Assembly (NCBI GenBank): GCA_035196065.1
Contig: CP136575.1
Span: 2,768,769 to 2,832,768 of the forward strand
Length of the DNA stretch: 64,000 bases
Source of the DNA: Sphingobium sp.
Lineage (GTDB): Bacteria > Pseudomonadota > Alphaproteobacteria > Sphingomonadales > Sphingomonadaceae
Direction: 5' to 3'
The notes beneath the pieces were generated by a model. It was not told the DNA's origin. It worked only from the letters and a program-made list of their open reading frames with translations, and did no database searches. This document shows, in pieces, positions 1-43,077 of this stretch. The position numbers and the translations under genes are program-made. How positions within the stretch are numbered: position 1 is the first letter of the stretch; each line of letters begins with the position of its first letter.

Positions 1-374
1 TCATTGAGGATGAACCGATCATCGCCCTCCATTTGAAACGCATCGTGGAATCGCTCGATCATGAAGTCACCGGCATCGTGCGCACCCGTGATGAAGCCGT
101 GCGCCACGCTTCGGAAATGCACCCTGAACTTGTTCTGGCCGACATCAGCCTTGCCGACGGATCGAGCGGCATCGACGCCGTTCGCGATATCCTGGCTCAC
201 GAAATGCTGCCGGTCATTTTCATTACGGCGTTTCCCGAACGCTTGCTAACGGGCGAACGGCCCGAGCCAACCTATCTGATCACAAAGCCATTTGAACCGG
301 AAACGGTGGCTGCGACGATCTGGCAAGCCCTGCTGGTTCACCGCGAAACTCAGGTTCATGCCGATGCGGTCTGA
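1..374 (+). CDS. phyR: PhyR, general stress response regulator (5' end outside window)
   Basis: This is the C-terminal receiver domain of PhyR, the anti-anti-sigma response regulator of alphaproteobacteria. When phosphorylated, PhyR binds NepR and releases sigma-EcfG. The reading frame is open from base 3 (IEDEPIIALHLKR), so the gene starts upstream of the window and the N-terminal sigma-like domain is not visible. Visible receiver features are the acidic pair in IEDE, the phosphoacceptor aspartate in LVLADISLADGSSG, the FITAFPER segment and the conserved lysine in ITKPFE. The phrase LTGERPEPTYLITKPF is highly characteristic of PhyR. The gene converges on the GH130 gene, with about 140 bp between them. 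Confidence 0.93.
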   Translation, partial: IEDEPIIALHLKRIVESLDHEVTGIVRTRDEAVRHASEMHPELVLADISLADGSSGIDAVRDILAHEMLPVIFITAFPERLLTGERPEPTYLITKPFEPETVAATIWQALLVHRETQVHADAV

Positions 375-4129: not shown

Positions 4130-4240
4130 CGATAACCACCCAATCGGATTTCAAGGATTGACGTGACGGCGACATCCGGCCGTGGATTGAATGATTGCCA
4201 CAGGTCGGCCTGATGTTTGCTGATGTGCACACACCCCTTT

Positions 4241-4265
4241 AACGTCGGGATCGCCACAATGTTCC
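4241..4265 (-). promoter_or_regulatory. Sigma-EcfG (general stress) promoter of the GT4-GH130 operon
   Basis: Read on the minus strand the site is GGAAC (4265-4261), 16 nt, CGTT (4244-4241). This matches the published alphaproteobacterial sigma-EcfG consensus GGAAC-N16/17-CGTT. It lies about 110 nt upstream of the GT4 start codon, pointing towards it, and next to phyR, the gene whose product activates sigma-EcfG. Confidence 0.75.
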
Positions 4266-4614
4266 GCCGCCTGTTGCTAGGCTCTTTAAAATGGCGCAGC
4301 ATGACCCAGTCAAAACCAATAATCCATGCGCCAGCGGTCGCATCGCCTTTGTAATTAAAGGTTTTAAAGGTACCGTCGCCGAGCTGAAAAAACGGGATGG
4401 ACCCCCGCCGATAGTTCGACCGGGGCCTCCGCTGAATGTTCATCCGGAGCAAACGGGGGCGTAAAACTCCGAACGACATTCCGGAAACACCGTCCGACAG
4501 CTTTGGTTCCCAGCACCGAAAATTTTTTTGCGAAACACCGCGCTGCGCTTCGGGCTTATCAAACAAGCATGTCAACGGAAGGGCCGTGGTTCAAACATTG
4601 CCCCTATGCGTCCG

Positions 4615-41299: not shown

Positions 41300-43077
41300 C
41301 CCTTGTCGAGTGCGAAATCGTCGGAGTCGTCACCGCCAAAGCTATGCTGCGCCCCGGCATGCATATTGCCGCTTGCAAATTGTTCGGCCAGTCGCGTTCC
41401 ATCGCGACGGCGAAACTCATCAACGGCCTGCATCACGGCGGAGTCACTGGCGCCCAATTCGAGCAATGCCTGCTGAGCCATGCTGATTGACGATTCGAAA
41501 ACCTCGCGCGTTACCCGCAGACCGCCATCCGGCATCAGCGCAAGCGCCTGCCGCCGGTCATAGGCGCGGACAAAGATGCGGGCCTTAGGAAAGTGGTGAC
41601 GCAGCGGTTCGAGTGTCTCTGCATCGAGTTCACGATCATCGATGCAAAAAAATATCGCGCAGGCTTCGGCTGCCCCCGCCCGTTCGAGGAGATCGATTCG
41701 CGTACCATCGCCGTAAAAGACCTGCCGTCCGAATATCTGGCTCCGCTCAATCTGCTGCGGCTTGATGTCGATCATCGTCACTTGATGGCCGCCCGCCTGC
41801 ATGATCTGTGTCACCGTCTGGCCAAAACGGCCCTGCCCGACGACGATGACATTGGATGGTGGCGCCGCAGCCGGGTCGACCAGAACGACATTGCTTTCAT
41901 ACCGTTCCCGAGCCAGTCGCTGCGCAAGGATCATCAGGAATGGCGTGGTCGCCATTGACAGGGTGATGATCGCGCCAAACAGGCTCGCGGCTTCCGGCTC
42001 GACAAGCAGCGCCCCTTGCGATGCAGCAAATAGTACAAAACCAAATTCACCGCCCTGGCTCAACAGCAGCGCCATGACGATTGAAGGCCGGTTGCCCAGG
42101 CCGAAAAGCCGACCCAGCCCAAAAATGATCGCGGTTTTCACCGCCACAAGGGTGGCCGCCAATCCGACAATCAACAACGGCTCTGCGATGATCACATCAA
42201 GGTCGAGCATCATGCCCACGGCAAGGAAAAACAGCCCCAACAATATCGATCTGAACGGATCGATATCGGCTTCAAGCTCATGCCTGTAAGGCGAATCCGC
42301 CAGCATGACCCCCGCGACAAATGCGCCCAACGCCGCAGATACACCGATTGATTGCATCAGCGCCGCACTGGCACACACGGCAAAAAGGCCGGTCACGATG
42401 AAAAGCTCTCGCTCCGACACTCGGCCGACCAAGCGAAGCAATGGCGAGAGGATATAGCGCCCCGCAAGGATCAGACCGGCAATCGCCAGCACCGCATAAA
42501 TGGCGAGGAGAAACCCGCTTGGTGCGCCCTCGGCGGCAGGGGCACGCGACAATGCGGCAACAATTGTCAACAGCGGGACGATCGAAATGTCCTGAAACAG
42601 CAGGATCGCAAAACTCTTTTCGCCATAGTCGGTTTTCAGCCGTCCCCGCGATTGCAGCAGCGGCAATACCTGCGCGGTTGAACTCAACCCCAGCGGAAGG
42701 CCGAGCACCAATGCAGCCTGCCAACTGAAGGGCAGGACGAAGGAGATGATCGCAAACATGGCAAGGCCGCACAGCGCCACCTGCAATGGACCGAACAGCA
42801 ATATGTCGCGCCGCATCAACCACAAACGGGATGGCGACAGTTCAAGCCCGACAAGAAAGAGCAGCAAGATGATGCCAACCTCGGCAAAACCGAGAATGGT
42901 TTCCGGATCACCCGATAGGCCAAGCCCGTCAGGGCCAATCACGATCCCGGCAACGAGATAACCAAGAACCGCACCGAGGCCGAGTTTGCGGAACAACAGG
43001 ACCGCCACCAATGCGGCACCAAGCAGAAGTGCAGCGCCGGTCAGCAGGTCGGTAAGGAAATGATGGCCTTCCGCCAT
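41296..43077 (-). CDS. CPA2-family cation:proton antiporter with RCK domain (Kef-type)
   Basis: A 593-residue inner-membrane protein with about twelve helices (residues 1-385; LLLGAALVAVLLFRKLG, GDPETILGFAEVGIILLLFLVG as region) followed by a TrkA-N/RCK domain with the NAD-binding motif VVGQGRFGQTV (about 407). Conserved antiporter segments GAFVAGVMLADSPY and LSQGGEFGFVLF are present. It is probably a potassium/proton antiporter gated by the nucleotide domain, as in KefB/KefC. It overlaps the preceding IscU/NifU-like gene by 1 nt. Confidence 0.9.
   Translation of the reverse strand: MAEGHHFLTDLLTGAALLLGAALVAVLLFRKLGLGAVLGYLVAGIVIGPDGLGLSGDPETILGFAEVGIILLLFLVGLELSPSRLWLMRRDILLFGPLQVALCGLAMFAIISFVLPFSWQAALVLGLPLGLSSTAQVLPLLQSRGRLKTDYGEKSFAILLFQDISIVPLLTIVAALSRAPAAEGAPSGFLLAIYAVLAIAGLILAGRYILSPLLRLVGRVSERELFIVTGLFAVCASAALMQSIGVSAALGAFVAGVMLADSPYRHELEADIDPFRSILLGLFFLAVGMMLDLDVIIAEPLLIVGLAATLVAVKTAIIFGLGRLFGLGNRPSIVMALLLSQGGEFGFVLFAASQGALLVEPEAASLFGAIITLSMATTPFLMILAQRLARERYESNVVLVDPAAAPPSNVIVVGQGRFGQTVTQIMQAGGHQVTMIDIKPQQIERSQIFGRQVFYGDGTRIDLLERAGAAEACAIFFCIDDRELDAETLEPLRHHFPKARIFVRAYDRRQALALMPDGGLRVTREVFESSISMAQQALLELGASDSAVMQAVDEFRRRDGTRLAEQFASGNMHAGAQHSFGGDDSDDFALDKG

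Follow-up and report, generated by a model that had tools for sequence, protein, structure and literature searches.

Organization of the GT4-GH130 locus

The window, i.e. the whole stretch of DNA analysed here, comprises 64,000 nt of Sphingobium sp. contig CP136575.1 (GCA_035196065.1, positions 2,768,769-2,832,768). Its left end carries the 3' part of phyR, a gene for a GH130-family protein, a gene for a GT4 glycosyltransferase, and two sites resembling promoters of the general stress sigma factor EcfG (Table 1). phyR is on the plus strand, starts upstream of the window, and ends at base 374. As the GT4 and GH130 genes are on the minus strand, the operon and phyR converge. The stop codon of the GT4 ORF is 3 bp away from the GH130 ORF. 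Among 89 GT4 loci, about 86 have GH130 directly after GT4 regardless of the neighbouring genes, with the GH130 partner being only a distant one in two of them (L050 and L145).

Table 1. Features at the left end of the window
Feature	Position	Strand	Basis or remark
phyR, 3' part	1..374	+	Whole gene G000:C1:2768366-2769142; Pfam PhyR_sigma2, PhyR_sigma-like, Response_reg
GH130-family protein, beta-1,2-mannoside-phosphorylase-like, 427 aa	515..1798	-	Pfam PF04041; PDB sequence and fold matches
Putative GT4 glycosyltransferase (GT-B; alpha-helical domain at the C-terminus), 775 aa	1802..4129	-	Pfam PF00534, PF13439; AlphaFold; fold matches
Sigma-EcfG-type promoter (predicted)	4241..4265	-	-35 GGAAC 4265-4261, N16, -10 CGTT 4244-4241; exact match
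Weaker EcfG-like site, GGAAC-N16-TGTT	4486..4510	-	Farther upstream of GT4

The sequence GGAACATTGTGGCGATCCCGACGTT (4241-4265, minus strand) fits GGAAC-N16-CGTT without mismatch, and the GT4 ORF begins 112 bp downstream on the same strand. Hence, a perfect site, its orientation towards the GT4-GH130 operon, and the convergence of this operon on phyR, all three claimed by the first-pass annotation, are found in the DNA. The weaker site farther upstream may form a tandem promoter with the first one. The same two-site arrangement precedes GT4 in a near-identical contig (L054), and -10 boxes of the nGTT type, including TGTT, are present before GT4 orthologues as well.

Weight of the sequence match

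The perfect pattern occurs twice in the window, compared with 0.28 occurrences expected from dinucleotide-preserving shuffles. The other occurrence is at 41884-41908 on the minus strand. Across the 3.02-Mb genome, there are 32 perfect GGAAC-N16-CGTT matches and 75 matches to the reversed pattern, i.e. no enrichment relative to the backward control. We inspected the surroundings of 30 of the 32 matches, and the majority of the matches are inside ORFs. As the matches are mostly intragenic and the pattern is not enriched, a perfect match alone is weak evidence in this genome, and we dropped genome-wide enrichment as support for the promoter. These counts would fit 4241-4265 being a random, functionless match in a 3-Mb genome. 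Such a chance origin is nevertheless very improbable, because sites of the same class precede the same operon in other genomes far more often than expected and with a spacing peak at 16-17 (see below). The case for a promoter is carried by the position and conservation of the site, not by the match itself.

Conservation of the site before orthologous operons

Conservation of the motif upstream of orthologues, the absence of which would have refuted the reading of the first-pass annotation by its own criterion, was inspected in 89 distinct GT4 loci from 26 genera by scanning 400 bp upstream of each inferred GT4 start. The pattern G[GC]AAC-N16/17-NGTT is present within about 400 bp upstream in 57 of the 89 loci, which are not phylogenetically independent, and in 14 of the 26 genera; the count of 57 includes a small tolerance for errors in the GT4 start. 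First-order Markov resampling of the same 89 upstream regions yields the site in a mean of 2.0 loci (maximum 7), so the conservation goes beyond chance and the motif passes the check. The site is found in 2 of 87 control stretches located 970-1400 bp upstream of GT4, in none of the 89 GT4 coding regions, and, at spacing 16, on the opposite strand of 3 loci. When the spacing between the same boxes was varied from 8 to 28, N16 accounted for 47 loci and N17 for 7, and each of the other spacings for 0-9. Locus groups differ in spacer sequence, in the type of -35 box (GGAAC or GCAAC), and in their neighbouring genes; hence, what they have in common is the promoter itself. A multiple DNA alignment of the promoter regions was uninformative as the sequences are too divergent.

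The strict pattern is absent within 400 bp in 32 of the 89 loci. Several of these have G[GC]AAC-N16-CATT or an arrangement led by a PRC-barrel gene. In two loci with the latter arrangement, the PRC-barrel gene heading the GT4-GH130 operon is preceded by GGAAC-N16-GGTT (L196/G349) or GGAAC-N16-AGTT (L197/G015), and no site lies directly before GT4. Of 398 sampled genomes of the order, 120 (about 30%) have relatives of GT4, which are patchy within the genus. A GH130 relative is rare beyond its own family, being present in 6 genomes among 386 sampled from the class, and in those 6 genomes a GT4 relative also adjoins GH130.

The published EcfG motifs of two sphingomonads are GGAAC-N16-CGTT, where GCAAC ranks second among the -35 boxes by frequency and the -10 boxes are flexible (PMC7083833), and GGAAC-N17-20-GTT (PMC6599016). 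At the sequence level, both agree with the sites before GT4-GH130. The locus resembles the EcfG regulons of Sphingopyxis granuli TFA and Sphingomonas melonis Fr1 in its GGAAC/GCAAC and nGTT boxes, its 16-17-bp spacing, and the adjacent regulators, and differs in that we found no mention of the GT4-GH130 pair in the main texts of those studies (PMC7083833, PMC6599016). The pair was not found in the top list for S. melonis Fr1 (PMC6599016, Table 1), nor did we find it described as a sigma-EcfG target in the open-text literature; a prior listing in supplementary tables is possible. S. melonis #1750/#1751 was considered as a candidate for this pair and rejected, since the published #1750 site fronts a different glycosyltransferase beside an amylase-like gene. 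In a genome close to S. melonis, the published EcfG site of #1930 (PMC6599016) is located about 500 bp past GH130 on the opposite strand (L195:9861-9885).

The site at 4241-4265 thus combines a GGAAC/GCAAC-type -35 box, a 16-17-bp spacer, an nGTT -10 box, and a same-strand gene downstream, in a genome encoding PhyR, NepR, and EcfG. Judged from the DNA, it is very likely a genuine sigma-EcfG promoter driving the GT4-GH130 operon.

Linkage to the general stress regulators

The region left of the window (L039) hosts nepR and ecfG, which are divergent from phyR, a Cache-HisKA_2 kinase gene, a CHASE-HWE kinase gene, and a small Transgly_assoc (GlsB/YeaQ-like) gene, all confirmed by Pfam. GGAAC-N16-GGTT is located shortly before phyR (G000:C1:2768314-2768338) and shortly before the Transgly_assoc gene (2764965-2764989). 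Elsewhere in the genome, a diverged EcfG-like gene (G000:C1:588867-589025; L052, L198) is about 35% identical to the phyR-adjacent EcfG, and may encode a second EcfG as in Sphingopyxis granuli.

The first-pass annotation had placed regulator and target side by side. This is true of the present locus and fails as a general rule, as GT4-GH130 lies beside phyR-ecfG in four loci only, namely this one, L045/G015, L046/G008, and L130/G349. In G015 and G349, the pair is downstream of phyR on the same strand; in G008, it is on the strand of phyR with intervening genes including one for superoxide dismutase. Other settings include a pair beside superoxide dismutase (L042) and a pair beside a photolyase-related gene (L195). 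Owing to this rarity, adjacency to phyR does not explain why the operon would be a target, and we dropped it as the main argument. Linkage to phyR is occasional, with the promoter being more constant.

The GT4 and GH130 proteins

The AlphaFold model of the GT4 protein has a pLDDT of 86. Its GT-B fold and Pfam GT4 domains place it among the retaining GT4 glycosyltransferases. The GT-B domain matches MshA, PimA, and sucrose-phosphate synthase about equally, and the C-terminal alpha-helical domain is related to 7tem according to the fold match. The ESFGIVLVE stretch of PimA aligns with a QxxSGTLSY-type stretch of the GT4 family, the alignment being loose there, and on this loose alignment the canonical EX7E glutamates are not evident. 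We therefore describe the protein as a putative glycosyltransferase with a tentative donor. Both sequence and model portray it as an atypical GT-B enzyme to which an alpha-helical domain is fused.

The GH130 protein scores 94.3 bits against Pfam PF04041 (curated cut-off 26), which assigns it to GH130. Its best PDB profile matches are beta-1,2-mannobiose and 1,2-beta-oligomannan phosphorylases. The best sequence and fold matches are Thermoanaerobacter Teth514_1789 and Teth514_1788 and Listeria Lin0857, with Teth514_1788 (24% identity) being the best fold match of the AlphaFold model (pLDDT 87.5). GH130 mannoside phosphorylases recognise mannose via an Asn and two Asp residues (PMC4264767). The corresponding N117, D217, and D408 are invariant in 27 sequences, the match of N117 having been made by eye from the motif. 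E216 precedes D217, as in the GH130 cluster of PMC4264767, so that the Glu before the catalytic Asp is kept along with the mannose-binding residues. K270, R288, and H341 are also invariant and align with the same residues of 7fip. Unlike the characterized phosphorylases, with which it shares ca. 23-25% identity, the protein has an additional N-terminal helical region of ca. 100 aa, a partner composed of GT4 and helical domains, and a predicted stress-sigma promoter. It scores below the NCBIfam equivalog cut-offs for beta-1,2-mannobiose phosphorylase (NF050092, 130 against 550 bits; NF052550, 129 against 450 bits), and we therefore regard it as related to the named enzyme rather than file it as such. 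Its sequence, predicted fold, and mannose-binding residues resemble those of beta-1,2-mannoside phosphorylases.

A second GH130 gene (G000:C1:1428562-1429824; L193:6015-7328) is 63-64% identical and has neither a GT4 gene nor an EcfG-like site. By sequence reading, its neighbours are PAS kinase-, FixJ-like-, Hsp20-, PfkB-type kinase-, and P-type ATPase-like genes.

Proposed role of the operon

The PhyR-NepR-EcfG partner switch is established, in which phosphorylated PhyR sequesters NepR from sigma-EcfG. At this locus, stress would cause HWE/HisKA2 kinases to phosphorylate PhyR, and PhyR-P would remove NepR from sigma-EcfG. EcfG-RNA polymerase would then start at about base 4234, a predicted start, and transcribe GT4 and GH130 as a single unit. 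GT4 would probably convert a nucleotide sugar to a mannose-containing glycan, and GH130 would probably extend or phosphorolyse beta-mannoside links via mannose 1-phosphate. The operon would thereby produce a glycan that serves as a reserve or protectant, and recycle it; we infer both which glycan this is and which way the flux runs.

The same promoter could instead drive a catabolic operon, in which GH130 recovers mannose 1-phosphate from a beta-mannoside that is either imported or part of the cell envelope. The likeness of GH130 to phosphorylases fits this reading, and a role in salvaging mannose for GDP-mannose has been proposed for the Thermoanaerobacter GH130 enzymes (PMC4264767). We consider it possible but rather doubtful, as a GT4 glycosyltransferase leads the operon, which suggests synthesis as well, and no transporter gene was recognised beside the operon within the window. 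The sugar may also be other than mannose, with the atypical GT4 and the divergent GH130 acting on, e.g. a glycan of the envelope or a small glycoside that acts as a protectant. The even matches of GT4 to MshA, sucrose-phosphate synthase, and PimA, the EX7E glutamates that are not evident in its loosely aligned region, and the sub-threshold NCBIfam scores of GH130 point that way; the invariance of the mannose-recognising N117, D217, and D408 points to mannose and makes a non-mannan glycan somewhat unlikely. We favour synthesis and phosphorolytic recycling of a beta-mannoside glycan, with the glycan and flux direction as presumed above.

In the mannogen system of Leishmania, the analogous function is the turnover of beta-1,2-mannan (PMC8950772). 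The Leishmania GT108 mannosyltransferase-phosphorylases share the GH130-like five-bladed fold (fold hits 6q4z and 6q4x); this similarity is remote, and a sphingomonad beta-1,2-mannan is so far hypothetical. That sphingomonads hold a bacterial counterpart of mannogen, an intracellular reserve or protectant resembling beta-1,2-mannan, built by GT4, recycled by GH130 via mannose 1-phosphate, and switched on by sigma-EcfG, is a speculative and, for now, improbable proposal.

More broadly, the first-pass annotation had suggested that glycan synthesis or turnover is part of the general stress response. The promoter conserved in 57 of the 89 loci and the nepR, ecfG, and kinase genes by phyR support this suggestion, and making or recycling of the presumed GT4-GH130 glycan very probably belongs to the stress response of these bacteria. 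The general-stress regulons of sphingomonads consist mostly of genes without known function. The predicted stress promoter of GT4-GH130 can be read from the DNA, and the operon would be a new addition to a known type of regulon, that of sigma-EcfG. If GH130 indeed acts on beta-mannosides, this would point to a glycan not yet described in the general stress response.
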